NCBI RefSeq assembly: GCF_001427985.1 | Contig: NZ_LMSA01000003.1 | Span: forward strand, 201,153 to 265,152 | Length of the DNA stretch: 64,000 nucleotides | Source: Knoellia sp. Soil729 | GTDB taxonomy: Bacteria; Actinomycetota; Actinomycetes; Actinomycetales; Dermatophilaceae | Direction of reading: 5' to 3' | Shown: in pieces, positions 1 to 59,776 of the stretch | How the letters are laid out: each line of letters starts with the position of its first letter | How positions within the stretch are numbered: the first letter of the stretch is position 1 | The notes under the pieces: model-generated | What the model was told of the DNA's origin: nothing | The model's input: the letters and a program-made list of their open reading frames with translations, nothing else | Databases searched by the model: none | Position numbers and translations under genes: made by a program

Positions 1-1097
1 GAGGCGACATCGACGTCCGGGTGCGGGCCTTCGGACCTCCCCGTGACGAGGAGGGGACGACCGGGTATGCCGACCTGCCGGCTCTCGAGGGCGCGAACCC
101 TGCGCTCGTGACCATGGGAGTCGACCTGGCGATCGCGGCCGACTGCGGCGGCACGGACCTGGTGCACTCGCACACCTGGTACGCCAACTTCGCCGGCCAC
201 ACGGCCTCGCTCCTCGAGGGCGTCCCGCACGTCGTCAGTGCCCACAGCCTCGAGCCGATGCGGCCGTGGAAGGCCGAGCAGCTCGGGGGCGGCTACCGAC
301 TCTCGTCCTGGATCGAGCGGACGGCCTACGAGGGTGCAGCTGCCGTCATCGCGGTGAGCGACGGCATGCGCAAGGACGTCCTGCGCAGCTATCCGACCAT
401 CGACCCGGACAAGGTCAAGGTGGTCCACAACGGCATCGACAGCGAGCTGTGGAAGCGGGTCGAGGACCCCGACACCGTGCGCCGTCACGGCGTGGACCCC
501 GACCGGCCCGGCGTCATCTTCGTCGGCCGGATCACCCGCCAGAAGGGCCTGCCCTACCTGTTGCGGGCGGTGGCCGAGCTGCCGCCGGAGGTGCAGGTGG
601 TCCTGCTCGCGGGCGCACCCGACACCCCCGAGATCAAGTCCGAGGTCGAGGAGCTCATCGCCGGTCTGCGCGAGACGCGGGACGGGGTGGTGTGGGTTCC
701 CGAGATGCTGCCGCGCAACGAGGTCATCGCGCTGCTCTCGGCCGCGACGGTGTTCGTCTGTCCCTCGGTCTACGAGCCGTTGGGCATCGTCAACCTGGAG
801 GCCATGGCGTGCGACCTGCCGGTCGTCGCGACGGCCACGGGTGGCATCCCCGAGGTCGTCGTGGACGGGGAGACCGGCTGGCTCGTGCCGATCGAGCAGG
901 TGCAGGACGGGTCGGGCGTCCCGGTCGACCCCGACCGCTTCGTCGCCGACCTCGCGGGTGCGCTCAACGCGGCGGTGTCGGATCCCGAGCGGGCGGCGCG
1001 CTTCGGCAGGGCGGGCCGGGTTCGTGCCGTCGAGTCGTTCTCGTGGTCACGCATCGGTGACGAGACGCTGACCGTCTATCGCGAAGTCCTGCGCTGA
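1..1097 (+). CDS. glgA: GT4 glycogen/maltose-1-phosphate synthase, 5'-truncated
   Basis: C-terminal part of an actinobacterial glycogen-synthase-type GT4 glycosyltransferase; the reading frame is open from base 3, so the start lies before the window. Enzymes of this group (GlgA, called GlgM in mycobacteria) use ADP-glucose to make alpha-glucan or maltose-1-phosphate in the cytoplasm. Visible are DLVHSHTWYANFAGH and HNGIDSELW in the acceptor half, FVGRITRQKG opening the nucleotide-sugar domain, and the retaining-GT4 E-x7-E signature in YEPLGIVNLEAMA. The TGA stop lies inside the 3' end of the opposing gene (22-bp convergent overlap). Family is certain; choosing between GlgA and GlgM activity from sequence alone is not possible. 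Confidence 0.9.
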   Translation, partial: GDIDVRVRAFGPPRDEEGTTGYADLPALEGANPALVTMGVDLAIAADCGGTDLVHSHTWYANFAGHTASLLEGVPHVVSAHSLEPMRPWKAEQLGGGYRLSSWIERTAYEGAAAVIAVSDGMRKDVLRSYPTIDPDKVKVVHNGIDSELWKRVEDPDTVRRHGVDPDRPGVIFVGRITRQKGLPYLLRAVAELPPEVQVVLLAGAPDTPEIKSEVEELIAGLRETRDGVVWVPEMLPRNEVIALLSAATVFVCPSVYEPLGIVNLEAMACDLPVVATATGGIPEVVVDGETGWLVPIEQVQDGSGVPVDPDRFVADLAGALNAAVSDPERAARFGRAGRVRAVESFSWSRIGDETLTVYREVLR

Positions 1098-1840
1098 GCC
1101 ACTGCTGAGACGCCGGCGTTCGTCGCGTCGGCCAGCGTGCGCTCAGCGGCCCGGTGCAGGCCGCGCAGCAGCTCGAGACGGCGTTGTTGCGTCCAGGCGT
1201 CCGGTCCGTCCTGCGGTCCGTCCAGGCCCGCCGCCGCGGCAGCACTGATGGCGGCCGCGAAGGTGATCGCGCGCAGCACCGGTCCGGGCAGCTCGTCGGG
1301 CAGGGCCCACGTCTCCGGGCGGGGAAGGGCCTCACGTGCGGCCGTGGCGTCGAATGGGCGTCCCCCGAGGGCGTCGAGCTGCTCGGTCGTCTCCAGCACC
1401 GTCGTGGTGAGCAGGCGGGTGGACTCCCGCGGGTCGAGCGCGGCCACCCGGTGCGTGGGCACGGCCTCGCAGTCGTGCGCCGTCCAGTCCAGCCGGCTGC
1501 CGGAGTCCGCGCCGCTGGCCCCCGGCGGTCCGAAGGTCGACCACGAGGGGATGAGAAGGGCGCCGAGTCCCGGTGCCACCAGGCACTCCTCGGCCTCGAC
1601 CGCTGACGCGCGGGTCTGCGGGTCGCAGGCCGGCAGGCTCGTGAGGTCGCCGCTCACCGGGAGCGCGACGAGGACGGTGCGCTCACCCAGGTCACGCCAC
1701 AGCTCGAGGCCTCGTATGCCGGGTCCGACCGCATCGACGTCGGGCAGGGCGGACTCGATGGCGCTCTCGAGGCTGGCGCCCCGAGCCCACGCGGACGTCG
1801 CCCACAGGGCGATCCGAACAGAAGCGGGAAGCTCGGGCAT
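1076..1840 (-). CDS. Conserved actinobacterial protein of unknown function
   Basis: I do not recognise this 254-residue protein. It starts MPELPASVRIALWATSAWARG and has an alanine-rich helix (AITFAAAISAAAAAGLDG) in its C-terminal half; there is no signal peptide or clear membrane segment. It converges on glgA with a 22-bp overlap and its start faces the ABC ATPase gene 42 bp away, so those two are transcribed divergently. Codon bias (G/C third positions on this strand) and the compact fit between neighbours support a real gene. Function cannot be inferred. Confidence 0.75.
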   Translation of the reverse strand: MPELPASVRIALWATSAWARGASLESAIESALPDVDAVGPGIRGLELWRDLGERTVLVALPVSGDLTSLPACDPQTRASAVEAEECLVAPGLGALLIPSWSTFGPPGASGADSGSRLDWTAHDCEAVPTHRVAALDPRESTRLLTTTVLETTEQLDALGGRPFDATAAREALPRPETWALPDELPGPVLRAITFAAAISAAAAAGLDGPQDGPDAWTQQRRLELLRGLHRAAERTLADATNAGVSAVAQRRTSR

Positions 1841-1882
1841 GCCGTCATCGTAGGCACGCTCGCGTCAACTAGGGTTCCCGTC

Positions 1883-2665
1883 ATGAGTGATGTGCTGGCG
1901 CTGGCGGGCGTGAGCGTCGTCCGTGGCGGCGCGACACTGCTCGACGAGGTCGACTGGGAGGTCGAGGAGGGGCAACGCTGGGTCATCCTCGGCCCCAACG
2001 GTGCCGGCAAGACGACGCTGCTCCAGCTGGCCTCGGGCCGCATGCACCCGACCCGCGGTGTCGCCGGGGTCCTCGGTGAGGTCCTCGGGGCGGTCGACGT
2101 CTTCGAGCTCCGCCCACGCATCGGGCTGGCCTCCGCGTCCCTGGCCGAGCGCATCCCGGGCAGCGAGCGGGTCGCCGACGTCGTGGTCACGGCGTCCTAC
2201 GGCGTCGTGGGCCGGTGGCGCGAGAGCTATGACGTCCTGGACCACGCGCGCGCCGCCGAGCTGCTCGATGCCCTCGGCGCGGGTCACCTGGGCGACCGCA
2301 CCTACGGCACCCTGTCCGAGGGTGAGCGGAAGCGGGTCCAGATCGCGCGGGCGCTGATGACCGACCCCGAGCTCATGCTGCTCGACGAGCCGGCCGCCGG
2401 GCTCGACCTCGGTGGCCGCGAGGACCTCGTCGCACGACTGGGCGCCATCGCGGGGGACGTGACCGCCCCGGCGCTCATCCTCGTCACGCACCACGTCGAG
2501 GAGATCCCCCCCAACTTCACCGACGTCCTGCTGCTGCGCGAGGGCCGCGTCGTCGCGCAGGGACCGATCGAGATCACCCTCACGGGCGAGAACCTCAGTG
2601 AGACGTTCGGGCTCCCACTCGAGCTCGAGCAGCGCGGGTCGCGGTATGCCGCATGGTCGCGATGA
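1883..2665 (+). CDS. Orphan ABC transporter ATP-binding protein (ModF/YlmA-like)
   Basis: A 260-residue single nucleotide-binding domain. Walker A is GPNGAGKT (about residue 38), the signature is LSEGERKR, Walker B is LMLLDEP, and the switch histidine is in LVTHHVEEIP. The sequence style matches the stand-alone ModF/YlmA-like group, in which no permease is encoded nearby. None is present here: the next gene is nfeD. The substrate, or whether it transports at all, is unknown. Confidence 0.88.
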   Translation: MSDVLALAGVSVVRGGATLLDEVDWEVEEGQRWVILGPNGAGKTTLLQLASGRMHPTRGVAGVLGEVLGAVDVFELRPRIGLASASLAERIPGSERVADVVVTASYGVVGRWRESYDVLDHARAAELLDALGAGHLGDRTYGTLSEGERKRVQIARALMTDPELMLLDEPAAGLDLGGREDLVARLGAIAGDVTAPALILVTHHVEEIPPNFTDVLLLREGRVVAQGPIEITLTGENLSETFGLPLELEQRGSRYAAWSR

Positions 2666-2750
2666 CCATCCGGTGACGGACACGTTGTCGGGCATGGGAT
2701 CGTTGACCTGACAGAGGCCGTCGAGGACGACGGCACGAAAGGGGAGTGTC

Positions 2751-3203
2751 ATGGACTGGCTCACCGACAACCCGTGGGTTGCCTGGCTGGGGGTCGCGCT
2801 CATCCTGGCCGCGATCGAGGCGGCCACGGTCGACTTCGTCTTCGTCATGCTCGCCGGAGGAGCCCTCGCCGGCGGCCTCGCAGCCGGCCTGGGTGGCAAC
2901 GCAGCGGTTCAGGTCGTCGTCGCGATCGCCGTGGCAGCGTTGCTGCTCTTCGTCGTGCGACCTCTCGTCAAGCGCAAGTTCACCGAGGGGGAGCTCGACA
3001 ACACCATCGGGGTGGCCAGCCTGGTGGGCAGGGAGGCCCGTGTCCTCCAGACGGTCACCGACACCGACGGACGCATCAAGCTCGCGGGCGAGACCTGGTC
3101 GGCCCGGGTCGCCGAGGGCGCCGAGACGCTGCGCCCCGGCGATGACGCGCGGGTCATCGCCATCCATGGTGCGACGGCCATCGTCGCGGCCGACCGCCAC
3201 TGA
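2751..3203 (+). CDS. NfeD-family membrane protein
   Basis: 150 residues: an N-terminal set of hydrophobic helices (about residues 10-70) followed by a soluble beta-rich region (about 80-150) with the typical NfeD pattern TIGVASLVGREARVLQ and GETWSARV. NfeD proteins partner SPFH/stomatin proteins in membrane microdomains, and the next gene 51 bp downstream encodes such a protein. A good ribosome site (GGGGAG) precedes the ATG. It probably forms an operon with the SPFH and TSUP genes. Confidence 0.9.
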   Translation: MDWLTDNPWVAWLGVALILAAIEAATVDFVFVMLAGGALAGGLAAGLGGNAAVQVVVAIAVAALLLFVVRPLVKRKFTEGELDNTIGVASLVGREARVLQTVTDTDGRIKLAGETWSARVAEGAETLRPGDDARVIAIHGATAIVAADRH

Positions 3204-3254
3204 CCAGCTCCACCCACAACGTTCGTCAACGCTCACCGAAACCAAGGGGAAATC

Positions 3255-4349
3255 ATGGTTGAACTCATCGTCCTGGGGCTGCTGCTGCTCTTTGCCGTCA
3301 TCGTCATCGTCCGCACCGTGCGGATCGTGCCGCAGCAGACCGCGCTCATCATCGAGCGCCTCGGCCGCTACCACGCGACCCTCGAGGGCGGTATCCACTT
3401 CCTCGTGCCCTTCGTGGACAAGGTGCGCGCCAACATCGACCTGCGCGAACAGGTCGTCTCGTTCCCGCCGCAGCCGGTCATCACCAGCGACAACCTCGTC
3501 GTCAGCATCGACACGGTCATCTACTACGCGGTCATCGAGCCCAAGTCCGCGGTCTACGAGATCGCGAACTTCATCCAGGGCATCGAGCAGCTCACCGTCA
3601 CCACCTTGCGCAACGTCATCGGCTCGCTCGACCTCGAGCAGACCCTGACCAGCCGTGACCAGATCAACGCGCAGCTGCGCGGAGTCCTCGACGAGGCCAC
3701 CGGCAAGTGGGGGATCCGCGTCAACCGCGTCGAGCTCAAGGCGATCGACCCGCCCATGTCGATCCAGGAGTCGATGGAGAAGCAGATGAAGGCCGAGCGT
3801 GAGCGTCGCGCCATCATCCTCACCGCCGAGGGCGCGAAGCAGTCCAACATCCTCACGGCCGAGGGTGAGAAGCAGAGCCAGATCCTGCGCGCGGAGGGCT
3901 CGGCCCAGGCCCGCGTCCTGGAGGCCCAGGGGCAGGCCCGCGCCATCCAGCAGGTCTTCGACGCCATCCACCGCGGGAAGCCCACCCAGAAGCTCCTCGC
4001 CTACCAGTACCTCCAGGTGCTGCCGCAGATCGCCCGCGGCGACTCCAACAAGATGTGGATCATCCCCAGCGAGCTCACCGACGCCCTCAAGGGGATCGGC
4101 GGCGCCCTGGGGCGCGGCGAGGGCGGCGGCGGCTTCGACGACAGTGACACCGAGGCCTGGGAGCCCAGCGAGGACCTGTCGACGCCGTTCGACGACACGG
4201 TGCTCGCCGACCCGGCTCAGGCACTGGCCGAGGCCCGCGGCGAGGCCGGCGAGGCCTCCCGCGAGGCCAAGGACCACGCCGCGCCTGCGGCCAGCCAGCA
4301 GCCGCCGCTGGCACCGCCCGCAGACGCCGTCCCGCCTCGCGAGAGCTGA
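3255..4349 (+). CDS. SPFH/Band-7 (stomatin-like, QmcA-type) membrane protein
   Basis: 364 residues. One N-terminal membrane helix (residues 3-22) is followed by the SPFH domain (IVPQQTALIIERLGRYHATLEGG, then IDLREQVVSFPPQPVITSDN) and a long charged helix rich in EGAK/EGEKQ/EGSAQA repeats (about 175-225) that in this family forms the oligomer's coiled coil. The tail after residue 280 is acidic, low complexity and Ala/Pro rich. SPFH proteins with NfeD partners scaffold membrane domains. The stop is 1 bp before the GTG of the TSUP gene, so the two are co-transcribed and probably translationally coupled. Confidence 0.92.
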   Translation: MVELIVLGLLLLFAVIVIVRTVRIVPQQTALIIERLGRYHATLEGGIHFLVPFVDKVRANIDLREQVVSFPPQPVITSDNLVVSIDTVIYYAVIEPKSAVYEIANFIQGIEQLTVTTLRNVIGSLDLEQTLTSRDQINAQLRGVLDEATGKWGIRVNRVELKAIDPPMSIQESMEKQMKAERERRAIILTAEGAKQSNILTAEGEKQSQILRAEGSAQARVLEAQGQARAIQQVFDAIHRGKPTQKLLAYQYLQVLPQIARGDSNKMWIIPSELTDALKGIGGALGRGEGGGGFDDSDTEAWEPSEDLSTPFDDTVLADPAQALAEARGEAGEASREAKDHAAPAASQQPPLAPPADAVPPRES

Positions 4350-4350
4350 G

Positions 4351-5139
4351 GTGGGCGCCGCCGAGGCAGCGCTGATCTTCGCCGCCGGTGTCGTCGCCGG
4401 CACGATCAACACGGTCGTCGGGTCGGGAACCCTCGTGACGTTCCCGACCCTGCTCTTCTTCGGGTACGCGCCCGTGATGGCCAACGTCTCCAACAGCGTC
4501 GGGCTCGTGGCCGGCGGCCTCACCGGTTCGTGGGGCTACCGGCACGAGCTCGGCGGCCTCAGGGGCACCTTGCTGCGCTGGGCGCCGATGTCGCTGCTCG
4601 GCGGCATCGTCGGGGCGGTGCTGCTGCTCAAGCTCGACCCTGCTGCCTTCCAGGCGATCGTGCCGGCCCTCATCGCGCTCGGGGTCCTGCTGGTGGCGGT
4701 CGGGCCCAGGCTGACCGCATGGTCGGCCGCTCGCCGGGGTGACGCTGCAGCCACCGCCCTCGGCGAGCACTCGGCCCGGCGTGCCGCCGTCCTGATGTTC
4801 TGCGTCTTCGCCACGGCCGTCTATGGCGGCTACTTCGGTGCGGCCCAGGGCGTCATCCTCATGGGGGTGCTCACCACGCTCACGAGCGAGTCGCTGCAGA
4901 GCCTCAACGGCATCAAGAACGTCCTGGCCACCATCGTCAACCTGGTGGCCGCCGTGACGTTCTTCCTCGTGGCCCCCGAGGAGATCAACTGGCAGATCGC
5001 CGGGCTGATCGCGGCGGGCTCGCTGCTCGGAGGGCTCATCGGTGCCCGCGTGGGTCGACGACTGCCTCCGAACGTCCTGCGCGCCGTCATCATCGTCATC
5101 GGGACGGTCGCGATCGTGCGGATGCTCTGGTTCTCGTGA
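4351..5139 (+). CDS. TSUP (TauE/SafE) family permease
   Basis: 262 residues from the GTG at 4351 (VGAAEAALIFAAG...). It has about eight hydrophobic segments and the TSUP hallmark near the N terminus, AGTINTVVGSGTLVTFPTLL, repeated in divergent form in the second half (YGGYFGAAQGVIL). TSUP members export sulfite, sulfoacetate or related small organic acids; the substrate here is unknown. It follows the SPFH gene after a single base. An upstream extension of the same frame is only the shadow of the SPFH gene, which fixes the start. Confidence 0.88.
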   Translation: MGAAEAALIFAAGVVAGTINTVVGSGTLVTFPTLLFFGYAPVMANVSNSVGLVAGGLTGSWGYRHELGGLRGTLLRWAPMSLLGGIVGAVLLLKLDPAAFQAIVPALIALGVLLVAVGPRLTAWSAARRGDAAATALGEHSARRAAVLMFCVFATAVYGGYFGAAQGVILMGVLTTLTSESLQSLNGIKNVLATIVNLVAAVTFFLVAPEEINWQIAGLIAAGSLLGGLIGARVGRRLPPNVLRAVIIVIGTVAIVRMLWFS

Positions 5140-5159: not shown

Positions 5160-5969
5160 GTGCCCACCCGGATCACCGACCCGAGCGACGACCGCGTCCG
5201 CGACTACGTCTCCCTGACCGACGTGGCGCTGCGACGGCGCACCGAGCCCGAGCGCGGCCTCTACATCGCCGAGTCCGAGAAGGTCATCAGGCGAGCACTC
5301 GCCGCCGGCCACCGCCCGAGGTCCTACCTCATGGCCGAGCGCTGGCTCACCGACCTCGGTGACCTCGTCGCGGACGCGGAACGAGACGGCATACCCGTCT
5401 TCGTGGCCGACCACGACGTCATCGAGGGCTTCACGGGGTTCCACCTGCACCGTGGCGCCCTGGCGTCGATGCAGCGACCCGACCTGCGACCGGTGGACGA
5501 GGTCGTCGCGGACGCTCGGCGCGTCCTCGTCATCGAGGACGTCGTCGACCACACCAACGTGGGTGCGATCTTCCGGAGTGCGGCCGGCCTCGGGGTGGGC
5601 GCGGTCCTCGTGACTCCTCGCTGCGCCGACCCGCTCTACCGGCGTGCGATCAGGGTGTCCATGGGCACCGTGTTCCAGGTGCCGTGGACGCGCATCGACC
5701 CCTGGCCGGCGGGCATGGACCTGTTGCGGGAGAACGGGTTCCGTGTGGCAGCCCTCGCGCTGTCGGAGGGCGCAGTGAGCCTGGACGCCTTGGCCGCCGA
5801 CCCGCCGGAGCGCCTGGCGCTCGTGCTCGGCACCGAGGGGGACGGCCTCAGCCGGCGCACGGTCCAGGGTGCCGACGTCGTCGTCACGATCCCGATGGCC
5901 GGGGGAGTGGACTCGCTCAACGTCGCCGCGGCGGGCGCGGTGGCCGCCTGGGCCCTGCGCCCCCGCTGA
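5160..5969 (+). CDS. SpoU/TrmH-family RNA 2'-O-methyltransferase
   Basis: 269 residues from a GTG start. The three SpoU knot motifs are present: IEDVVDHTNVGAIFRSA (motif 1, Asn and Arg catalytic region), LALVLGTEGDGLS (motif 2) and IPMAGGVDSLNVAAAGAV (motif 3, SAM pocket). The N-terminal part (SEKVIRRALAAGHRPRSYL) is the substrate-binding domain of TsnR/RlmB-like enzymes. It methylates a ribose in rRNA or tRNA; the site cannot be named from sequence. The downstream hairpin at 5988-6047 probably terminates it. Confidence 0.92.
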   Translation: MPTRITDPSDDRVRDYVSLTDVALRRRTEPERGLYIAESEKVIRRALAAGHRPRSYLMAERWLTDLGDLVADAERDGIPVFVADHDVIEGFTGFHLHRGALASMQRPDLRPVDEVVADARRVLVIEDVVDHTNVGAIFRSAAGLGVGAVLVTPRCADPLYRRAIRVSMGTVFQVPWTRIDPWPAGMDLLRENGFRVAALALSEGAVSLDALAADPPERLALVLGTEGDGLSRRTVQGADVVVTIPMAGGVDSLNVAAAGAVAAWALRPR

Positions 5970-6474: not shown

Positions 6475-7241
6475 GACGCGGCCTCCCACCAGGCGCTGGC
6501 GTTCTCGAGGCGCCGAGTGAGGTGCTCGACGTAGGCGTGGCGCACGGCCTCTGTGTCCTCGAGGCCGGGTGCCGGCTCGAGCCACTCGTCGGGCACGAGG
6601 GCCACCACCTCGGTCAGCACCTCCGGCGTGAGGACGGCGGTGGCACGGTCGTGGGCAGCGGCGAGGTCCCCGGCGACGTCACCGAGCACGTGCTCGGAGG
6701 AGTCGAACGGCTGGGACGCGAAACGCGACGCATCAGGCCCCCGCGACGGCCACGAGTGGTGGAACCAGATGGCCGCCCCGTGGTCGATCGCCCACACCTT
6801 GCGGTGCCAGACGAGGAGGTTGGGGTTGGACCACGTGCGGTCGACGTTGGCCGTGAACGCGTCGAGCCAGACGATGTCGGCGGCCTCGTGCGGACTGGGC
6901 GGCCGCGAGCCGTCGTAGCCGAAGGACCCGGGGAGGAAGTCCACAGCGAGGTTGTCTCCCGGGCTGGCGTTGAGCAGGTCCTGGACCTCTTCGTCGGCCT
7001 CGTAGCGCGCGATGGCAGTAGGCATGTCGATGACGGCCATCTCGGGGATACGGATGCCGAGCCGCCGGGCGAGCTCCCCGACGATGACCTCGGCGACGAG
7101 GACCTTGAGCCCCTGTCCGGCTCCACGGAACTTCACGACGTAGGTGCCGTCGTCGGACGCCTCGACGATCCCGGGCAGCGACCCGCCCTCGCGCAGGGGC
7201 GTGACGAACCTCGTCGCGGTGATGTGGGGGAGCACGGTCAC
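6471..7241 (-). CDS. HipA-like kinase domain protein
   Basis: 256 residues from GTG. It resembles the stand-alone HipA-like kinase family rather than full HipA toxins: there is a nucleotide-binding strand (TYVVKFRGAGQGLKVLVAEVIVGELARRLGI), then the catalytic-type segment DIVWLDAFTANVDRTWSNPNLLVW with D and N residues in the order of the HipA catalytic loop, and IDHGAAIWFHH as the metal-binding D. No HipB-like DNA-binding partner is adjacent; its partner is the overlapping DUF3037 gene. It is divergent from the receptor kinase gene at 7292. Confidence 0.85.
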   Translation of the reverse strand: MTVLPHITATRFVTPLREGGSLPGIVEASDDGTYVVKFRGAGQGLKVLVAEVIVGELARRLGIRIPEMAVIDMPTAIARYEADEEVQDLLNASPGDNLAVDFLPGSFGYDGSRPPSPHEAADIVWLDAFTANVDRTWSNPNLLVWHRKVWAIDHGAAIWFHHSWPSRGPDASRFASQPFDSSEHVLGDVAGDLAAAHDRATAVLTPEVLTEVVALVPDEWLEPAPGLEDTEAVRHAYVEHLTRRLENASAWWEAAS

Positions 7242-7291: not shown

Positions 7292-8812
7292 ATGAGCACC
7301 ACGCAAGGGCGGCTGCTCGGCGGCCGCTACCGACTGGGTGCACCGTTGGGGCGGGGCGGCATGGCCGTCGTCTGGCGGGCCGAGGACGAGATGCTCGGTC
7401 GTGAGGTGGCCGTCAAGACGCTCGACCTCACCGGGCCGGACAGTGACAACGCCGGCGAACGCTTCCGCCGCGAGGCACGCGCCACCGCGATGCTCAACCA
7501 TCCGCACATCGTCACCGTCTATGACACGGGCGTCGAGGACCAGACCGCCTTCCTCGTCATGGAGCTGCTGCCCGGACCCACGCTCGGTGAGGAGGTGCGC
7601 GACTCCGGCCCGCTGCCCGTCGACGAGGTGCGCACCATCGGCTATGAGGTGGCCGGCGCGCTGCAGGCAGCGCACGACGCCGGCATCGTGCACCGCGACA
7701 TCAAGCCGGCCAACATCTCGTATGCCGCCGACGGCACCGTGAAGGTCCTCGACTTCGGCATCACCCAGATCGTCGACGAGGCGCTGGGGCACCACCAGCT
7801 GACGATGACGGACACGATCGTCGGCACGGCCGAGTACCTCGCGCCCGAGCAGGCGACCGGGCAGCGGGTCGACGCCAGGGCCGACCTCTACGCCCTCGGC
7901 TGCGTGCTCACCACCCTGCTCACCGGCAAGCCGCCCTTCACCGCAAACACCCCGGTCGCGATCCTGATGAAGCACGCCCACGACGTCCCGGCGGACGTGC
8001 GCGGCGCAAGGCCGGAGACGCCTGCGGACCTCGCCGCCCTCGTCGCTGCGCTGCTCGCCAAGGACCCCGTTGACCGACCACAGTCGGGGCGGGAGGTTGC
8101 CGACCTGCTGCGCTCGCACCGTGCACCGGCCCTGACCGAGGTGCTGCCCGCCGCGGCTGTGGCGACCCCGCCCACTGCAGTGGCACCCCGACCGGACGAG
8201 TGGCAGGGGCCGGCATACGAGACGTCTGAACCGGTGCGGGAGCCGCGCCGCTCGCGTGCCTGGCTCTGGCTGCTCCTTCTCGGGGCAGCCCTGGCTGCTG
8301 CGGGGATATACCTCGCCCTGCAGGACCGTGACGGCACGCCGGACACGCCGGCGAACACCCCGGTGGACACGCCGACCTCGCAGGTCTCGCAGTCACCCTC
8401 CGACACCCCTGCGCCCCAGCCCTCCACACCGGCACCGAGGCCCTCGACACCGAAATCCACCACCACGGTGACCGAGCAGACAACACCCACGACGAGCCCG
8501 ACTGCGGCGTCGACTCCGCCCGACACGGCCCAGCCGGTCACCGACGCCAGCGCGGCCCTGGGGGATGCCGTCAAGAGCCTCTCGCCGGACGACCTCAGCC
8601 CCGACGTCGCCAAGACCGTCCAGGCGCTGCTGCGGGACGTCGACAAGGACGTACGCAAGGGCGACGCACAGGGGGTCAGGTCGAAGGTGGACGACATCGA
8701 GTCCGAGCTCACGAAGGCCGCGGAGGAGGAGAAGCTGTCCGGGCCCGGCCGGGCTCAGCTCGATGGTCCGCTCGCCGATCTCCAGGACGCGGCCGCCGCC
8801 TTCACCGCCTGA
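7292..8812 (+). CDS. PknB-like transmembrane Ser/Thr protein kinase
   Basis: 506 residues. Kinase domain (about 10-270): glycine loop GRGGMAVVWRA, ATP lysine in EVAVKTLDL, catalytic loop HRDIKPANI, DFG, and APEQATG after the activation loop (MTMTDTIVGTAEY). A Pro/Ala linker leads to one membrane helix (about residues 322-342, WLWLLLLGAALAAAGIYLAL). The outside part has a Thr/Pro/Ser-rich stalk (about 345-415) and a C-terminal helical domain (ASAALGDAVKSLSPDD to the end) instead of PASTA repeats, so it senses something other than peptidoglycan through PASTA. GAGGAGA precedes the ATG. Confidence 0.93.
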   Translation: MSTTQGRLLGGRYRLGAPLGRGGMAVVWRAEDEMLGREVAVKTLDLTGPDSDNAGERFRREARATAMLNHPHIVTVYDTGVEDQTAFLVMELLPGPTLGEEVRDSGPLPVDEVRTIGYEVAGALQAAHDAGIVHRDIKPANISYAADGTVKVLDFGITQIVDEALGHHQLTMTDTIVGTAEYLAPEQATGQRVDARADLYALGCVLTTLLTGKPPFTANTPVAILMKHAHDVPADVRGARPETPADLAALVAALLAKDPVDRPQSGREVADLLRSHRAPALTEVLPAAAVATPPTAVAPRPDEWQGPAYETSEPVREPRRSRAWLWLLLLGAALAAAGIYLALQDRDGTPDTPANTPVDTPTSQVSQSPSDTPAPQPSTPAPRPSTPKSTTTVTEQTTPTTSPTAASTPPDTAQPVTDASAALGDAVKSLSPDDLSPDVAKTVQALLRDVDKDVRKGDAQGVRSKVDDIESELTKAAEEEKLSGPGRAQLDGPLADLQDAAAAFTA

Positions 8813-10014: not shown

Positions 10015-10103
10015 GAGGTGGCTGCAAGGCCTCGCGAAGCGGTGCCTGCAACGTGCCGGAACTTTACACGGCATACCGGTCCATCGAGAAATCGGTCCCC
10101 GGC

Positions 10104-17442: not shown

Positions 17443-18135
17443 GTGCACGTTCCCGACGGGTTCCTCGACGCACCCACGTCGATGGCGACCGCCGTCGTGG
17501 CCGCGGCAGGCGTCGGCCTGGCGCTGAGCCGGGCCCGCCGTGAGCTCGACGACCGCACCGCCCCCTTGGCCGGACTGGTGGCCGTCTTCGTCTTCGCGGC
17601 GCAGCTGCTCAACTTCCCGGTGGGAGCGGGCACCTCGGGTCACCTCCTGGGTGGCACGCTCGCCGCCGTGCTCGTCGGACCGTGGACCGCGACCCTGTGC
17701 CTCACCGTCGTGCTGACCGTGCAGGCGCTGCTCTTCGCCGACGGCGGGATCACGGCGCTGGGAACCAACATCACGCTCATGGGTCTCGTGGGGGTGTGGG
17801 CCGGCTGGGCTGTCTTCACCTCCCTGCGCCGTCTGGTCCGGTCGCGAGGGCTCGCCGCGGTGCCCGCGCTCGCGGGCGTGGCGGCCTTCGCCTCCGTCCC
17901 GGTGGCCGCCCTGGCCTTCACCCTGCTGTATGCCGTGGGTGGACGTGCACCGATCCCGCTCGGGGAGCTCGTGGCTGCCATGGTGGGCTGGCACACGCTC
18001 ATCGGCCTGGGTGAGGGGTTCATCACCTTCCTTGCCGTGGGCAGCATCATCGCCACGCGCCCAGACCTGGTGCACGGAGCCCGGAGCCTGGTCCATGCCA
18101 GAGCACTGGAGATCCGGACGGACGCTCGCGCATGA
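17443..18135 (+). CDS. CbiM/NikM metal-specificity component of an ECF transporter
   Basis: 230 residues from the GTG at 17443, chosen because CbiM/NikM proteins must begin Met-His and this start gives (M)HVPDGFLD; GGAGGG lies six to seven bases upstream. The free N terminus and His2 form the metal site in this family. About seven membrane helices follow, with NFPVGAGTSGHLLGG as the second conserved block. Forms the substrate-binding unit for Ni2+ or Co2+ import with the three downstream genes. The upstream palindrome suggests Nur control. Confidence 0.94.
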   Translation: MHVPDGFLDAPTSMATAVVAAAGVGLALSRARRELDDRTAPLAGLVAVFVFAAQLLNFPVGAGTSGHLLGGTLAAVLVGPWTATLCLTVVLTVQALLFADGGITALGTNITLMGLVGVWAGWAVFTSLRRLVRSRGLAAVPALAGVAAFASVPVAALAFTLLYAVGGRAPIPLGELVAAMVGWHTLIGLGEGFITFLAVGSIIATRPDLVHGARSLVHARALEIRTDARA

Positions 18136-42927: not shown

Positions 42928-42991
42928 GCGGACAACGTAGCCGTGTGCTCCCACGAAAGGGGGGCACACGGCATACGGGCAGGTGTCTCCG

Positions 42992-50832: not shown

Positions 50833-51731
50833 GCCAGCTGCGTCACGAGCGCATCGGGTTGGTCATCAACCCCACGGCAGGCAAGAACACCGGTGCGCGC
50901 ATCGGGCGCGAGGCCGCCTTGCTCCTCGCTGCGGCGGGTCACGAGATCGTCGACCTCTCCGCCATGGACGGCGCCCACGCCACCGCGCGCGCCCGCGCGG
51001 CCATCGCCGACCACGCCGTGGACTGCATCGTCGTCGCGGGGGGTGACGGCATGGTCCACCTCGGCGTCAACCTCGTCGCGGGCACCGACCTGCCGCTCGG
51101 GATCATCGCGGCGGGTACGGGCAACGACAACGCGCGCGAGCTCGGCCTCGCCGTGCGTGACGCCGCGAAGGCCGTCGAACGGATCACGCGTGGTGCCACC
51201 CGACGCATCGACGCGGTCCGGCTGGTCACCACCCACGGCGAGGCGCGCTGGTTCGTCGGTGTCCTCGCCGCCGGCTTCGACGCCGTCGTCAACGAGCGCG
51301 CCAACGCGTGGAGGTGGCCCAAGGGACAGATGCGCTACAACCTCGCGATCGCCCGTGAGCTCGGCGTCTTCAGGCCCATTCCCTACGTCGTCGAGGTGGA
51401 CGGCGTCCGCCACGAGACCAGGGCGATGCTCGTCGCGGTCGCCAACGGACCGGCATACGGGGGTGGCATGAAGGTCGTCCCGAGCGCCGAGTTCGACGAC
51501 GGCATGCTCGACGTCCTCATCCTCCACGAGGTCTCGATCCCGACGCTGCTGCGGGTCTTCCCCAAGGTCTTCCAGGGGGCACACGTCGACCATCCCGCCG
51601 TCGAGATTCTCCGCGGACGCCAGGTCCGCCTCGAGGCCAGGGGCATCGTCTCCTATGCCGATGGTGAGCGGTTCGAGCCCCTGCCACTCGAGTGCGAGGT
51701 CGTCCCGGGCGCGGTCACCGTCCTGACGTAG
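50829..51731 (+). CDS. Diacylglycerol kinase-family lipid kinase
   Basis: 300 residues from the GTG at 50829, overlapping the tatC stop (GTGA). The DAGK catalytic signature is IGLVINPTAGKNTG, IVVAGGDGMVHLGVNLVAGTDLPLGIIAAGTGNDNAREL (GGDG and GTGND). The C-terminal beta sandwich (RAMLVAVANGPAYGGGMKVVPSAEFDDGMLDVLILH) completes the fold. It phosphorylates diacylglycerol or a related lipid; exact substrate open. Confidence 0.93.
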   Translation: MSQLRHERIGLVINPTAGKNTGARIGREAALLLAAAGHEIVDLSAMDGAHATARARAAIADHAVDCIVVAGGDGMVHLGVNLVAGTDLPLGIIAAGTGNDNARELGLAVRDAAKAVERITRGATRRIDAVRLVTTHGEARWFVGVLAAGFDAVVNERANAWRWPKGQMRYNLAIARELGVFRPIPYVVEVDGVRHETRAMLVAVANGPAYGGGMKVVPSAEFDDGMLDVLILHEVSIPTLLRVFPKVFQGAHVDHPAVEILRGRQVRLEARGIVSYADGERFEPLPLECEVVPGAVTVLT

Positions 51732-51741: not shown

Positions 51742-54543
51742 ATGAGCGGCTCAGCGACGGAGACGGGGCCCCATCTTGCGGCCTTCACGGCCCTGCAGAA
51801 CTTCCCGCTCGACCCGTTCCAGGTGCAGGGGTGCGAGGCGGTCGAGGCCGGTCAGGGTGTGCTCGTGGCGGCCCCCACGGGGGCAGGCAAGACGATCGTC
51901 GGCGAGTTCGCCGTGCACCTCGCCCTCGCGACCGGACGCAAGGCCTTCTACACCACGCCCATCAAGGCGCTGTCGAACCAGAAGTACCACGACCTCGTGG
52001 CCGCCCACGGCCCCGACAAGGTCGGCCTGCTCACGGGTGACTCGTCCATCAACGGTGAGGCACCCGTCGTCGTCATGACGACCGAGGTGCTGCGCAACAT
52101 GGTGTATGCCGGGTCGTCCACCCTGCAGGGACTGGGCTTCGTGGTCATGGACGAGGTGCACTACCTCGCCGACCGCTTCCGCGGCGCGGTGTGGGAGGAG
52201 GTCATCATCCACCTGCCCGAGTCGGTGCAGGTCATCTCGTTGTCGGCCACCGTGAGCAACGCCGAGGAGTTCGGCGACTGGCTCGCCGAGGTTCGTGGCA
52301 ACCACGCTGTCGTCGTCTCGGAGCACCGACCGGTGCCGCTGTGGCAACACATGCTCGTGGGCAGCTCGATGTTCGACCTGTTCGCCGACGAGACGTCCGA
52401 GCCTCGGGAGGACGGGTCTGTGGCACAGGTCAGTCCCGAGCTCATCCAGGCCATCCGTGGCGCCGAGCAGCAGCGGGCCGACGGGTGGGTCCGGGGGAGC
52501 ACGCGGGACCTGCCCCGTGGGCGGGCCGGTGGACGGAGCTCCGGCCGGGAGCCGGGGCGAGAGCGCGGCCGCGGTCCGGGACCGCAGCGTTCGTTCACCC
52601 GGGGGAGCCGGCCCGGTGGCGGCGCGACCCGTGCCGAGGTCATCGCGCAGCTCGACCGCGACGGACTCCTGCCGGCGATCACGTTCATCTTCAGCCGCAT
52701 GGGCTGCGAGGGTGCCGTGGGGCAGCTGCTCGCCTCCGACACCCGGCTCATCCCGCAGCGCGAGGGTGAGCGCATCCGGCGCCACGTCGAGGAGCGCATG
52801 GGCTCGCTCGCCGACGAGGACCTCGGCATCCTGGGCTACTACGACTTCGTCGAGGCGCTCTCGCGAGGCTTCGCGTGCCACCACGCCGGGATGCTTCCGC
52901 TCTTCCGGGAGATCGTCGAGGAGCTGTTCACTGCCGGTCGCATCCGTGCGGTGTTCGCGACCGAGACCCTGGCCCTGGGCATCAACATGCCGGCGCGCAC
53001 GGTGGTGCTCGAGAAGCTCGTGAAGTTCAACGGCGAGACGCACGCCGACATCACCCCTGCCGAGTACACCCAGCTCACCGGCCGGGCCGGCCGGCGTGGG
53101 ATCGACATCGAGGGCCACGCGGTCGTGCAGTGGAGCCGAGGACTCGACCCGATCGCCGTCGGAGGGCTGGCCTCGACCCGGACCTACCCGTTGCGATCGA
53201 GCTTCCGCCCGACCTACAACATGGCCGTCAACCTCGTGGCACAGGTGGGGCGCCAGGTGGCGCGCGACATCCTCGAGACGTCGTTCGCCCAGTTCCAGGC
53301 CGACCGGGCCGTCGTCGGGCTGGCGACCAAGGTGCGGCGCAACGACGAGGCGCTCGAGGGATATGCCGAGTCGATGCACTGCGACCTCGGAGACTTCCGC
53401 GAGTACGCCGACCTGCGTCGCGCCATCGCGGATGCCGAGAAGGACGGTGTCCGCAAGCGCTCCGCCGGTCGCAAGGCGCAGGCTGCGGTGAGCCTGGAGA
53501 AGCTGCGGGTGGGGGACATCATCAAGGTGCCGGCAGGCCGGCGTTCGGGCTGGGCCGTGGTGGTGCAGACCGCGAAGACCGGCAAGGGATCCCCGAGCGG
53601 GCCGGGTGTCGTGACCGAGGAGCGGCAGTTCCGGCGGTTGACCCTCGTGGACGTTCCTGAGCCAGTCGAGGCCGCTGCCTCCATCACGGTGCCCAAGCAC
53701 TTCAACCCCAAGTCACCCAAGGCCCGGCGCGACCTCGCGACGACCATGAGGATCGCCGTTCCCCACGACGTCACGGCCAAGCCGTCCGCGGAGAGGGAGG
53801 AGCAGGTCGAGGAGAACGACCGCATCGCCTTCCTGCGCGCGGAGCTGCGCGCCCACCCGTGCCACCAGTGTCCCGACCGTGAGACCCATGCCCGGTGGGC
53901 CGAGCGCTGGTACCGCCTGCGTCGCGAGACGGCTGGCCTCAAGCGCAAGGTCGAGGGCCGCACCAACTCCGTCGCCCGCACGTTCGACCGTATCTGCATC
54001 GTGCTGACCCAGCTCGGCTACCTCGAGGACGACATCGTCACCGAGCGCGGTGAACGCCTGCGCAGGCTCTACACCGAGCGGGACCTGCTCGCCGCCGAGT
54101 GCCTGCGCCGCGACGTGTGGAAGCGCCTCGACGCACCTGGCCTCGCTGCCTGTGTGTCCACGCTGGTCCACGAGCCCCGGCACGAGCAGGCCGACCCCTC
54201 ACCGCGGATGCCCAACGACGAGGTCGCCGCAGCGGTCACCGAGATGCAGCGGCGATGGAGCCAGCTCGACGACCTCGAGGCCCAGCACGGTCTCGAGACC
54301 ACAGAGGTCCCCGACGGGGGGATGGCGTGGATGGTCCACCGCTGGGCCAGCGGCGAGCGCCTGGACGCGGTCCTGCGCGGGCACGACATGGCCGCCGGCG
54401 ACTTCGTCCGCCGGTGCAAGCAGATCGTCGACCTGCTCGGGCAGATCGCGGATGCGGCTCCCGACTCCGAGCTGCGGCGCACGGCCCGCAAGGCCATCGA
54501 CGGAGTGCGTCGGGGGGTCGTCTCCGCCGACCGCCTCGACTGA
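51742..54543 (+). CDS. helY: Ski2-like DEAD/DEVH-box helicase HelY
   Basis: 933 residues. Q-like FPLDPFQVQGCEAV, Walker A APTGAGKT, DEVH in VVMDEVHYLADRFRG, SLSATVSN, and motif VI QLTGRAGRRGID. After the helicase core comes a winged-helix/ratchet region and a C-terminal helical domain (DAVLRGHDMAAGDFVRRCKQIVDLLGQI, a Ski2/Mtr4 DSHCT-like end). Between the two RecA-like domains (about 213-300) is a Gly/Arg-rich insertion. Probably an RNA helicase in RNA decay or rRNA metabolism; role in bacteria not settled. Confidence 0.94.
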   Translation: MSGSATETGPHLAAFTALQNFPLDPFQVQGCEAVEAGQGVLVAAPTGAGKTIVGEFAVHLALATGRKAFYTTPIKALSNQKYHDLVAAHGPDKVGLLTGDSSINGEAPVVVMTTEVLRNMVYAGSSTLQGLGFVVMDEVHYLADRFRGAVWEEVIIHLPESVQVISLSATVSNAEEFGDWLAEVRGNHAVVVSEHRPVPLWQHMLVGSSMFDLFADETSEPREDGSVAQVSPELIQAIRGAEQQRADGWVRGSTRDLPRGRAGGRSSGREPGRERGRGPGPQRSFTRGSRPGGGATRAEVIAQLDRDGLLPAITFIFSRMGCEGAVGQLLASDTRLIPQREGERIRRHVEERMGSLADEDLGILGYYDFVEALSRGFACHHAGMLPLFREIVEELFTAGRIRAVFATETLALGINMPARTVVLEKLVKFNGETHADITPAEYTQLTGRAGRRGIDIEGHAVVQWSRGLDPIAVGGLASTRTYPLRSSFRPTYNMAVNLVAQVGRQVARDILETSFAQFQADRAVVGLATKVRRNDEALEGYAESMHCDLGDFREYADLRRAIADAEKDGVRKRSAGRKAQAAVSLEKLRVGDIIKVPAGRRSGWAVVVQTAKTGKGSPSGPGVVTEERQFRRLTLVDVPEPVEAAASITVPKHFNPKSPKARRDLATTMRIAVPHDVTAKPSAEREEQVEENDRIAFLRAELRAHPCHQCPDRETHARWAERWYRLRRETAGLKRKVEGRTNSVARTFDRICIVLTQLGYLEDDIVTERGERLRRLYTERDLLAAECLRRDVWKRLDAPGLAACVSTLVHEPRHEQADPSPRMPNDEVAAAVTEMQRRWSQLDDLEAQHGLETTEVPDGGMAWMVHRWASGERLDAVLRGHDMAAGDFVRRCKQIVDLLGQIADAAPDSELRRTARKAIDGVRRGVVSADRLD

Positions 54544-54644: not shown

Positions 54645-55637
54645 TCAGGGGATCTGGAGCGCGGCCAGGACGCGGTTGATCGGGTTGGTGATGCCGTAGG
54701 TCGAGGCGAGCTCGCTCAGCAGCCTCGTGTCGGCAACGGCGGTGGGCAGTGCCACGTCGACGTCCGCGACCGGTGCGTCACGCACCACGCGGACCACCTG
54801 CGGGGCCACGTCGAGGTATGCCGCGGCGGCCTCCAGGTTGGCCCGTCGCGCACCCTTGATGCTCGGGTGTCCGCTCTCGACCGCCTCCCGCAGGCCGGCC
54901 AGCGACCCATGTGCCGCGATGAGCTGGGCCGCGGTCTTGTCGCCGATCCCCTTGACCCCCGGGAGGCCGTCGCTGGTGTCACCGCGCAGGATCGACATGT
55001 CGAGGTAGGCCTCACCGTTGGGCACGGCGTACTTGTCGCGAAGGTAGGTCTCGGTGCCCTGGTCGGGCTCTCGCACACCGCCCTTGCCGGTGTAGAGCAC
55101 CCGCACGCAGTGGGTGTCGTCGATGAGCTGCAGCAGGTCGCGGTCGCCGGTGACGACGTCGATGGCCATGCGCCCTCGGTAGCGCTCGACCATGGTGCCG
55201 ATGACGTCGTCGGCCTCGTAGCCATCGGCTCCCAGACGGGCGATGCCCAAGGCCGAGAGGGCGTCCACGATCAGGGGAACCTGAGGAGCGAGGTCGTCGG
55301 GCACCTCCTCGGCCGCGGTGTCGGCCGACGCAGGATGCGCCTGGTCGGGGGCGTCTCCGGCCGCGGGAGCGGACGCCGACCCAGCCGGTTCGCCCACCCG
55401 GTGCGCCTTGTAGCTCGGGATGAGGTCGACCCGGAACTGGGGCCTCCAGTCGTTGTCCCAGCAGGCCACGAGGTGCGTGGGACGGTGCGCGTTCACGAGG
55501 GTGGCGATCATGTCGAGGAAGCCGCGCAGGGCGTTCGTCGGGTGCTCGTCCGCGGACGAGCGCTGGTCCGGCACACCGTAGAAGGCCCTGAAGTACAGCG
55601 AGGCGGAGTCGAGGAGCAGCAGGCGTTCCGTCGTCAT
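54645..55637 (-). CDS. Stand-alone 5'-3' exonuclease (Pol I N-terminal-domain type)
   Basis: 330 residues from the ATG at 55637 (MTTERLLLLDSASLYFRAFYGVP). The FEN/PIN-type metal-site acidic residues are in LLLDSASLYFRAF, ACWDNDWRP, LGADGYEADDVIGTM and VVTGDRDLLQLIDD; the H3TH motif is ILRGDTSDGLPGVKGIGDKTAAQLI. No polymerase domain is attached. An Ala/Pro-rich insertion (residues 81-112) follows SYKAHR. Removes 5' ends or flaps, a backup to polA. Divergent from the Lrp gene. Confidence 0.93.
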   Translation of the reverse strand: MTTERLLLLDSASLYFRAFYGVPDQRSSADEHPTNALRGFLDMIATLVNAHRPTHLVACWDNDWRPQFRVDLIPSYKAHRVGEPAGSASAPAAGDAPDQAHPASADTAAEEVPDDLAPQVPLIVDALSALGIARLGADGYEADDVIGTMVERYRGRMAIDVVTGDRDLLQLIDDTHCVRVLYTGKGGVREPDQGTETYLRDKYAVPNGEAYLDMSILRGDTSDGLPGVKGIGDKTAAQLIAAHGSLAGLREAVESGHPSIKGARRANLEAAAAYLDVAPQVVRVVRDAPVADVDVALPTAVADTRLLSELASTYGITNPINRVLAALQIP

Positions 55638-56602: not shown

Positions 56603-57093
56603 CGGGCGATGGCTGCGGTGATCGCCCCGGTGACGGCCACCAAGTCTGCCGGGGTGAGCTCGAGGTCGAGCCCCCGGCGGCCACCTGACACAAGCACCGT
56701 CGCGTGCCCAAAGGCGGAGGAGTCCACGACCGTCGGCAGCGCGCGCTTCTGGCCGATGGGCGAGATCCCACCGACGACGTAGCCCGAGCTGCGCTCTGCT
56801 GCAACGGGATCCGCCATGGCGACCTTCTTCACGCCGAGCGCGGACGCCATCGCCTTCAGGTCGAGGGTGTGGTCCACGGGCACGACACCGACAGCGAGTC
56901 CCGTGCCGGTGTCGACCAGGAGGGTCTTGAACACGCGCGCCGGCTCGACCCCGAGAGCCTGCGCGGCCTCCAGGCCGAACGACTCAGCCGCAGGGTCGTG
57001 CTCGTAGGCGCGGACGGCATACGGGACCTTGGCTCGCGTCAGCGCAACGGTCGCCGGGGTAGCCACCGAGCCACCGCGGTCCTTGTGTGCCAT
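56599..57093 (-). CDS. ybaK: Cys-tRNA(Pro)/(Cys) deacylase YbaK/EbsC
   Basis: 164 residues. TPATVALTRAKVPYAVRAYEHDP and the conserved RVFKTLLVDTGTG (catalytic Lys), ALGVKKVAMADPVAAERSSGYVVGGISPIGQKRALPTVVDSSAFGHATVLVSGGRRGLDLELTPADL are those of the YbaK editing domain. It hydrolyses mischarged Cys-tRNA(Pro) in trans. Length is normal. It converges with the hypothetical gene at 56183. Confidence 0.95.
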   Translation of the reverse strand: MAHKDRGGSVATPATVALTRAKVPYAVRAYEHDPAAESFGLEAAQALGVEPARVFKTLLVDTGTGLAVGVVPVDHTLDLKAMASALGVKKVAMADPVAAERSSGYVVGGISPIGQKRALPTVVDSSAFGHATVLVSGGRRGLDLELTPADLVAVTGAITAAIAR

Positions 57094-57128
57094 GAACGCG
57101 AGAGTATGCCGTCGGTCACCGCGTGTGG

Positions 57129-58604: not shown

Positions 58605-58642
58605 TGACGTGTTCGTCACATCCCTACCGCAATATTTGTTGC
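58605..58642. promoter_or_regulatory. Two palindromes in the kamA/kdd divergent promoter
   Basis: TGACG-tgtt-CGTCA (58605-58618) and GCAA-tatttg-TTGC (58629-58642), both perfect, lie in the 86-bp gap between the two start codons, in locally AT-rich DNA. They are candidate sites for a shared regulator, for example an Lrp-type protein such as the one at 55691. Confidence 0.45.
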
Positions 58643-58669
58643 AGCGTGTCGCAAGACAGGAGAAATTGC

Positions 58670-59776
58670 GTGGCCATGCCGCGAACGACGCCCCCCGCCG
58701 GACCCTCCTCACCGCTGGGGGTCCACCGCGTGCTCGAGCCAGCGGGAGCCTCGCTGCCGCAGGCCGCCCGGGTCCTGGACGCCAGCCCCCAGATCTGGCC
58801 CGACGAGGTGCGCATCGACATCGAGACGCTCAACCTCGACGCCGCGTCCTACCGCCAGCTCCACGACAAGCACGAGGGCGACGGTGCGGCCATCCGCGCG
58901 GAGGTCCTGCAGATCGTGGGCGAGCGCGGCAAGATGCAGAACCCCGTCACGGGCAGTGGCGGGATGCTCATCGGCACCGTCGCGGAGGTCGGCCCGACGT
59001 CCACCCTGGGCCTGGCGGCGGGTGACCGCGTGGCCACCCTCGTCTCGCTGTCCCTCACACCGCTTGCGATCACCGACGGCCTCGAGGGCTGGGACGGGTC
59101 GGGGGAGCGGGTCCCCGCCCGGGGACACGCCATCCTCTTCGGCCGCTCCATCGCCGCGAAGCTGCCCGAGGACCTCGCACCCGAGCTGGCACTCATGGTC
59201 ATGGACGTCTGCGGCGCACCTGCACTCGTGGCCCGGACCGTGCGTGCGTATGCCGCCCGCCTGCCTTTCGACGCCGCCATCGGTTCCGTGGGCGGTCCGT
59301 CCGTCGTCGTGCTCGGGGGAGCGGGCAAGTCCGGGTCGTTGTCGCTGGCCGCGGCCGCCGACGCGGGGGCGACCCGTCGCGTCGCGGTCGTGCGTGACGA
59401 GGCCGAGGCGTCGCTCCTCGAGGGCACCGGACTCGCGACCCGCGTCCTCATCGCCGATGCGCGCAACCCGATCGGTCTCTCCGAGGCCGTCGCCACCGCC
59501 GGCGGGCCGGCCGACCTCACCGTCGTCTGCGTCGACGTCACCGGCTGCGAGCAGCCGGCGATCCTGGCGACCGCCGAGGGCGGCACCGTCATCTTCTTCT
59601 CGATGGCCACGAACTTCGCGGCGGCGGCGCTCGGGGCCGAGGGGCTGGCCGCCGACGTGACCATGCTGGTCGGCAACGGCTACGTCCCCGGCCACGCGGC
59701 ATACGCGCTCGAGCTCCTGCGCGGCAACGCCGCGGTCCGCGAGCTCTTCGAGGGCCGTCTCACCCACCACGGGTAG
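58670..59776 (+). CDS. kdd: L-erythro-3,5-diaminohexanoate dehydrogenase
   Basis: 368 residues. I choose the GTG at 58670 because AGGAGA lies six bases upstream; an ATG at 58676 is the alternative. The N-terminal part (GVHRVLEPAGASLPQAARVLDASPQIWPDEVRIDIETLNLDAASYRQLHDKHEGD) is characteristic of Kdd. The medium-chain dehydrogenase-like nucleotide fold shows VVVLGGAGKSGSLSLAAA. It oxidatively deaminates 3,5-diaminohexanoate in the lysine fermentation pathway. The mutase between them (kamDE) and kce/kal are not in the window. Confidence 0.9.
   Translation: MAMPRTTPPAGPSSPLGVHRVLEPAGASLPQAARVLDASPQIWPDEVRIDIETLNLDAASYRQLHDKHEGDGAAIRAEVLQIVGERGKMQNPVTGSGGMLIGTVAEVGPTSTLGLAAGDRVATLVSLSLTPLAITDGLEGWDGSGERVPARGHAILFGRSIAAKLPEDLAPELALMVMDVCGAPALVARTVRAYAARLPFDAAIGSVGGPSVVVLGGAGKSGSLSLAAAADAGATRRVAVVRDEAEASLLEGTGLATRVLIADARNPIGLSEAVATAGGPADLTVVCVDVTGCEQPAILATAEGGTVIFFSMATNFAAAALGAEGLAADVTMLVGNGYVPGHAAYALELLRGNAAVRELFEGRLTHHG

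Follow-up and report, generated by a model that had tools for sequence, protein, structure and literature searches.

We analysed a 64,000-nucleotide stretch of the genome of Knoellia sp. Soil729 (contig NZ_LMSA01000003.1, positions 201,153 to 265,152; hereafter the window), in which the octamer GTATGCCG recurs on both strands. This word very likely serves a natural-transformation system of the Dermatophilaceae (Intrasporangiaceae) as its DNA uptake sequence, and the structure that recognises it is probably a Tad-type pilus; uptake of the word, the specificity of that uptake and the recognising component are what we infer from the comparison of genomes. It is also likely, though somewhat less so, that the system represents a third origin of bacterial self-DNA recognition and the first in Gram-positives (Actinomycetota), with at least two families of one order and at least six dialects, including a complete change from the GTATGCCG type to CGAAGGGGG in Janibacter, and with a Tad/Flp rather than a type IVa pilus. 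The initial annotation of the window had named three kinds of signal, namely Chi sites, uptake sequences and sites of a chromosome-organising protein. The dialects, the inverted-repeat hairpins, the absence of the word from three mobile elements and its co-occurrence with competence genes together favour the uptake kind, whereas the equal use of both strands argues against a polar signal like Chi or KOPS (FtsK-orienting polar sequences).

GTATGCCG is asymmetric and non-palindromic. The window contains 37 exact copies, 21 on the forward and 16 on the reverse strand, the first at 65 and the last ending at 59704, while 100 dinucleotide shuffles of the window gave a mean of 0.86 copies and a maximum of 4. 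The heptamer GTATGCC is followed by G in all 37 cases. Both counts and coordinates agree with the initial annotation, as does the conclusion that codon preference is no explanation: 200 synonymous-codon shuffles of the window genes gave a mean of 1.98 and a maximum of 6, against 35 observed site-in-gene counts (33 sites, two of which lie in overlapping gene calls). The gene calls used here and for reading frames and intergenic share are rough. Varied frames had also been claimed, and the frames that were named do occur, yet 25 of the 33 fully genic sites sit in two of them, TAT-GCC (Tyr-Ala, 15) and GCA-TAC (Ala-Tyr, 10), with the remaining 8 spread over four others. The excess of intergenic copies (six) that had been proposed was not found, since the rough calls place 4 of 37 copies outside genes against 8.8% non-coding sequence. 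Spacing in the window is somewhat more even than random (coefficient of variation 0.75; 4% of random sets are lower), with no neighbour pairs less than 60 bp apart. Maximal-order Markov scores in the window did not rank the octamer, probably because its own sub-words are inflated. The sites are as follows, the four outside genes being assigned from the gene calls.

65–72, forward strand, exact copy of GTATGCCG
1714–1721, forward strand, exact copy
2644–2651, forward strand, exact copy
5387–5394, reverse strand, exact copy
7720–7727, forward strand, exact copy
8211–8218, reverse strand, exact copy
10069–10076, reverse strand, exact copy, outside called genes
14108–14115, forward strand, exact copy
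14940–14947, reverse strand, exact copy
17928–17935, forward strand, exact copy
21732–21739, reverse strand, exact copy
24948–24955, forward strand, exact copy
25094–25101, reverse strand, exact copy
25545–25552, forward strand, exact copy
26171–26178, reverse strand, exact copy
27927–27934, forward strand, exact copy
30776–30783, forward strand, exact copy
31092–31099, reverse strand, exact copy
33397–33404, forward strand, exact copy
34245–34252, forward strand, exact copy
34883–34890, forward strand, exact copy, outside called genes
35333–35340, forward strand, exact copy
35852–35859, reverse strand, exact copy
37714–37721, forward strand, exact copy
37874–37881, reverse strand, exact copy
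38745–38752, forward strand, exact copy
42937–42976, no strand, imperfect hairpin-like inverted repeat seen by eye and not folded; its right arm is the site at 42969–42976 and its left arm is GTAGCCGTGTGC, the word minus one T
42969–42976, reverse strand, exact copy
44631–44638, reverse strand, exact copy
46829–46836, forward strand, exact copy
47590–47597, reverse strand, exact copy
51451–51458, reverse strand, exact copy, outside called genes
52104–52111, forward strand, exact copy
54816–54823, forward strand, exact copy
57015–57022, reverse strand, exact copy
57104–57111, forward strand, exact copy, outside called genes
59248–59255, forward strand, exact copy
59697–59704, reverse strand, exact copy

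Whole-genome counts bear out the proposal of a genome-wide DNA signal. The own assembly (G000; 3,605,744 bp, 8 contigs, 99.99% complete) has 1055 + 1083 = 2138 copies, against 38 + 51 = 89 for the control, which is the word read backwards. When at least 250 copies and 2.5 times the control count are required, GTATGCCG counts as enriched in 89 of the 149 genomes of the family, representing 33 of 53 genera, with a median of 1901 copies (range 272 to 4724), and all 9 genomes of the own genus (g1) are above this threshold. The closest named relatives of the own pilin come from Knoellia species and from Janibacter sp. HTCC2649 (G065), which groups with g1 and not with g38. Presence and absence of the word switch within genera (G069 in g25, G125 in g35). 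Near-equal strand use, which the initial annotation had held against KOPS-like polarity, extends to the family: copies in the 89 enriched genomes total 85,559 forward and 85,724 reverse, and in the congener G121 twenty 20-kb stretches placed around its 4.16-Mb chromosome contain 116 forward and 127 reverse, none of them strongly one-sided, as totals per genome and per stretch with positions relative to origin and terminus unmapped. These 243 copies in 400 kb compare with 10.1 expected, about 24-fold over an order-3 Markov model.

A survey of 296 phylum genomes, of which 3 belong to the family, revealed no strong enrichment beyond the family; mild cases include G422 (161 vs 30) and G186 (238 vs 95). 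As other families of the order contributed only 5 of the 296, a separate search covered the order itself. Among its 346 genomes, GKATGCCG, which combines GTATGCCG and GGATGCCG, shows strong enrichment in a single further family, f4 (4563 vs 207 for the control in G403, 4927 vs 296 in G527); some members of f4 are weaker, and at least G501 (587 vs 238) clearly departs from the pattern. Ratios in the other 18 families are about 0.6 to 3.7, except for G500 (602 vs 114).

In many genomes without GTATGCCG, another word is present at comparable density: GGATGCCG, GTACGCCG, GTATGCGG, GAATGCCG or CGAAGGGGG. Such genomes were scanned over 20–80 kb each without a preset word; whole-genome counts were made for four words and are given here with the reversed control in brackets. 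GGATGCCG reaches 3949 (289) copies in G026, 3816 (392) in G016 and 3838 (439) in G064, as well as 4480 (262), 3619 (206), 2195 (207) and 2099 (200) in G103, G118, G044 and G079 of genus g44; elsewhere in the family it has at most 1336 copies, about 1.2 to 6.6 times the control (1336 vs 310 in G001, 827 vs 126 in G011). Genus g44 holds two words, as if one were replacing the other: G044, an Ornithinibacter metagenome-assembled genome (MAG), has 1217 copies of GTATGCCG beside its 2195 of GGATGCCG, and G103 has 361 beside 4480. GTACGCCG is found at 3903 (310) in G040, 4185 (207) in G102, 2111 (148) in G077, 2618 (161) in G048, 2366 (155) in G081, 2216 (143) in G023, 2529 (243) in G107, 1463 (114) in G069, 1359 (167) in G024 and 1125 (171) in G054. 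CGAAGGGGG has 1265 to 1939 copies in 11 of 11 genomes of g37 and g38, the latter including Janibacter sp. Soil728 (G101), with no more than 80 in any of the remaining 138. A related 8-mer, CGAAGGGG, occurs 11–19 times in 14–20 kb loci of Janibacter corallicola, J. indicus, J. anophelis, J. terrae and Marihabitans asiaticum, and less often in those of J. limosus (9) and J. hoylei (5). Two words were counted in stretches only: GTATGCGG in Nostocoides sp. F2B08 (G020; 18 vs 1.3 expected, 80 kb) and GAATGCCG in a Phycicoccus MAG (16 vs 0.8, 18 kb). The dialect words are no codon artefact. For nine word sets out of nine, the coding count lies above all 100 synonymous shuffles, for example 183 vs 14.0 (G121), 46 vs 8.5 (G026), 101 vs 17.9 (GTACGCCG in g40) and 48 vs 7.7 (CGAAGGGGG). 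No clear word emerged from the stretches of G058, G041, G045, G125, G088, G028, G061, G014, G049, G084 and G002, in scans of 20–80 kb from which weak words may escape; genus g7 was counted for preset words only.

Some further repeated words were seen in passing. G371 of f4 (L107-L108) has 16 copies of GGATGCCTCG in 40 kb vs 0.56 expected, which may be a dialect of this second family with a longer word. In G210, of family f3 (L105-L106), GGACGGCGA occurs 30 times in 40 kb vs 3.6 expected, and a separate repeat contains TGATCATGCA and GCAATCCCGC in 7 copies each. Weaker words, which may be codon effects, are CGATGCGGG in G057 (L084-L085; 14 vs 1.6) and TGCGCGAG in G026, G069 and G134 (L065-L067, L071-L073, L079-L081; 21–31 vs about 6–7 in 60 kb).

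We also examined the competence genes of the family. Since comEC is present in 145 of 149 genomes, ComEC was rejected as the explanation of word presence or absence. In the own genome, comEA, which encodes SLBB and helix-hairpin-helix domains, adjoins comEC (L064); as a candidate dialect receptor, ComEA was rejected, being present in 21 of 21 loci viewed and showing no dialect pattern by eye. The comEA frame of G014, a genome with no detected word and no Tad locus, looks broken (L074 around 6601–6825). A type IVa pilus was rejected as the machine, PilM occurring in 5 of 149 genomes and being absent from the own genome, and the TadE family as a whole (145 of 149) was too general. The own Tad locus, on G000:C2, contains tadA, tadB, flp, tadE1, tadE2 and tadF. 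Flp/Tad genes are required for transformation of Micrococcus luteus (PMC4322843), and the own tadE1 and tadE2 start, by eye, like M. luteus TadE and TadF in Table 1 of PMC6370729.

A tadE2 profile matched 130 of 149 genomes. We rechecked 16 of the 19 misses (G085, G086 and G091 not among them), together with 9 other genomes, using TadA, and found a close TadA (74–83% identity) in G118, G026, G077 and G066, only paralogues (32–41%) in G006, G056, G013, G061, G110, G090, G014, G062, G041 and G045, and locus fragments in G017 and G092. A dialect was called for GTATGCCG by its threshold, for the remaining counted words from 1,000 copies upwards if this was also 5 times the control count, and for GTATGCGG of G020 from stretches. 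On this basis, 110 of the 134 genomes with the pilus locus carry a dialect vs 3 of the 15 without it (Fisher 2e-6; 2e-5 if G026 and G037 are counted as broken, 5e-5 if G126 is too), although these tests overstate independence because the genomes are related and no correction was applied. None of the four counted words reaches its threshold in the five genera in which the locus turned up in no member (g7, g14, g15, g41, g45).

Three mobile elements of G121 (43.1 kb) together hold 1 copy of GTATGCCG vs 26.2 expected (P about 1e-10), with island limits drawn by eye from genes and GC content and all of L047 counted. By Pfam, L047 is a conjugative element with a TraG-type coupling protein, and with TrbL and a catalytic integrase domain below cut-offs; L054 holds a serine recombinase, and L053 is an island of low GC that encodes a phage-type integrase. 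Close pairs of copies are mostly inverted. Neighbours less than 60 bp apart number 15 in G121, vs about 8 expected; all 15 are inverted, and 13 are not inside a called gene. Several form perfect extended stems, such as GTATGCCGTGTGGTCACCACACGGCATAC (L049) close behind a called gene end, and inverted shares in other sets are 15/21, 14/21, 11/14 and 11/12. From their sequence, these pairs appear to be terminator-like hairpins, and the uptake words of Neisseriaceae (DNA uptake sequences, DUS) and Pasteurellaceae (uptake signal sequences, USS) are often arranged as inverted pairs acting as terminators (PMC12616744). Elsewhere, two copies stand in tandem with one base of overlap (G116:C1:15914-15928). 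Flanking bases in G121 carry little information (next base T 44%, A 3%; eight bases before, A 38%). An alignment of two regions of the own genome with their counterparts in G121 shows 16 of 26 GTATGCCG sites to be identical vs 26.5% of other 8-mers (P 2e-4), a count taken in both directions so that shared sites enter twice.

We propose that the Flp/Tad competence pilus would bind word-bearing DNA through one of its surface components, most likely a minor pilin, and would deliver this DNA to ComEA, that ComEC would pass one strand in and that homologous recombination would install it. If word-bearing DNA of relatives is preferentially taken up, copies born by mutation would spread and lost copies would be restored, and the word would for this reason accumulate on both strands wherever a protein or terminator tolerates it, while foreign DNA would be without it. 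A shift of recognition specificity might then lead a lineage to rewrite its genome into a new dialect.

In addition to the overstated independence of the Fisher tests, several observations weigh against this proposal. No dialect is found by thresholds in 24 of the 134 locus-bearing genomes, among them G125, which has an apparently complete locus and lies inside a motif-bearing genus. Conversely, the locus is missing or damaged in three to six genomes that bear a word. In G017 and G092, about 2,540 GTATGCCG copies persist with locus fragments only; the G017 locus (L222 9868-18914) is interrupted by a low-GC island that encodes a SMODS-type nucleotide synthetase, and the G092 locus (L223 10691-18928) by one with an Eco57I-type methylase and an XhoI-type nuclease. 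G026 keeps GGATGCCG; after its tadABC comes an island carrying a GmrSD-type gene (L224 2603-9567), and no flp, tadE1 or tadE2 was detected next to tadABC. CGAAGGGGG is kept in G037, where tad fragments contain stops (L225 8811-12288), and in G126, where tadE2 is split over two frames (L226 10355-10769). The pilus in G037 and G126 seems recently lost, and the broken-locus genomes as a group could fit recent pilus loss or recognition of the word by another machine. Any old chromosomal signal would likewise be absent from recent immigrants. The 24 one-mismatch neighbours of GTATGCCG show no excess in G121 or the window, whereas allowing one mismatch raised the count of one Neisseriaceae dialect by 21% (PMC3630211).

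The receptor was not found in a search for pilin residues that follow the dialect, and this too counts against the proposal. The minor pilin TadE2 was rejected, as neither column 85 nor column 104 tracks the dialect consistently. At column 85, Gly is changed in 4 of 4 GGATGCCG loci read (of 5; one without a match) and in the GAATGCCG locus, and also in 2 of 24 GTATGCCG loci. At column 104, Arg replaces Pro in 7 of 8 loci first grouped as GTACGCCG, the exception being L253, which keeps Pro and whose genome also has GTACGGCG. This residue failed on new genomes: two further GTACGCCG genomes keep Pro, and Arg is also present in G004 (GTATGCCG) and G010 (no word). As a separate matter, insertion of the defence-type islands in the Tad loci of G017, G092 and G026 might, speculatively, shield them from removal by transformation.

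For each of Chi, KOPS and HIP1 (highly iterated palindrome 1), a defining feature is lacking in GTATGCCG. Very unlikely, though the least so of the alternatives, is a Chi-like octamer at which an end-resecting enzyme (AdnAB or a RecBCD/AddAB relative) would switch from degradation to recombination. The word is a non-palindromic octamer, genome-wide and absent from the three mobile elements, and vertical inheritance of repair enzymes would suit its family-wide spread. Known Chi sites, however, are strand-biased relative to replication, whereas GTATGCCG uses both strands equally overall, with no strong bias in the 20 G121 stretches (replichores unmapped); moreover, its roughly 24-fold enrichment is far above that of Escherichia coli Chi, and the inverted hairpin pairs and the unrelated Janibacter word are left without reason. 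We give still less chance to a site bound by a protein that organises or segregates the chromosome (KOPS, MatS or nucleoid-protein type), although thousands of copies, the spacing in the window and absence from the three insertions would suit such a site. KOPS polarity points towards the terminus, but no polarity is seen over the G121 stretches, the word-poor stretches L047, L053 and L054 contain mobile elements, and the word comes and goes within genera. Just as improbable is a restriction-modification, BREX (bacteriophage exclusion) or HIP1-like motif, kept by methylation and biased repair rather than by selection or uptake. HIP1 of cyanobacteria is a comparably dense octamer of unsettled role. 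Exactness without near-miss excess could fit such a repair-driven process, as could a few near-miss words below the Markov model at positions 6–8 (for example GTATGACG, 3 vs 11.9 in G121), a deficit we attribute to probable inflation of the model by GTATGCCG itself; HIP1 is palindromic and GTATGCCG is not, and one exact word over 33 genera is unlike restriction systems, which are labile.

As an uptake sequence, GTATGCCG would resemble the DUS of Neisseriaceae, which have thousands of exact copies, dialects a few bases apart and inverted pairs with a terminator role (PMC3630211, PMC12616744). Two DUS dialects occur in nearly equal numbers in the one genome of Simonsiella muelleri (PMC3630211), and integrative elements have been identified by the genomic distribution of DUS dialects (PMC7371117), much as the G121 islands stand out by absence of GTATGCCG. 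The systems differ in host group (here Actinomycetota), in word length (10–12 bases vs 8 here) and in machinery, a type IVa pilus with ComP there and a Tad/Flp locus here, with PilM confined to 5 of 149 relatives and no ComP search made. In addition, near-miss words are not in excess here and the DUS core CTG is absent from GTATGCCG. We take the ATGCCG shared with AT-DUS to be chance. Pasteurellaceae USS are likewise short asymmetric words with hundreds to thousands of copies, two types in the family and inverted-repeat terminators (PMC12616744); they differ in word and host group, and their predicted receptor is the type IV minor pilin PpdA/ComN, for which no counterpart was identified here. 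Flp/Tad-dependent transformation of M. luteus shares ComEA/ComEC, a tad locus and similar tadE1/tadE2 starts, whereas the term "uptake sequence" occurs 0 times in PMC4322843 and PMC12849477; M. luteus genomes lie outside the sample here. No actinobacterial uptake sequence was described in the titles and opening lines of abstracts among the literature matches listed, and a 2025 paper still calls Neisseriaceae and Pasteurellaceae the only families known to recognise such words at uptake (PMC12616744).

If GTATGCCG and its dialects are indeed uptake sequences, uptake specificity would have arisen again, in Gram-positives and with a different pilus. The two-dialect genus and the Janibacter word change would make the replacement of an uptake word directly testable. 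A genome's dialect would predict which DNA that genome accepts, and the addition of 8 bases could turn actinobacteria that are hard to transform into tractable laboratory organisms.

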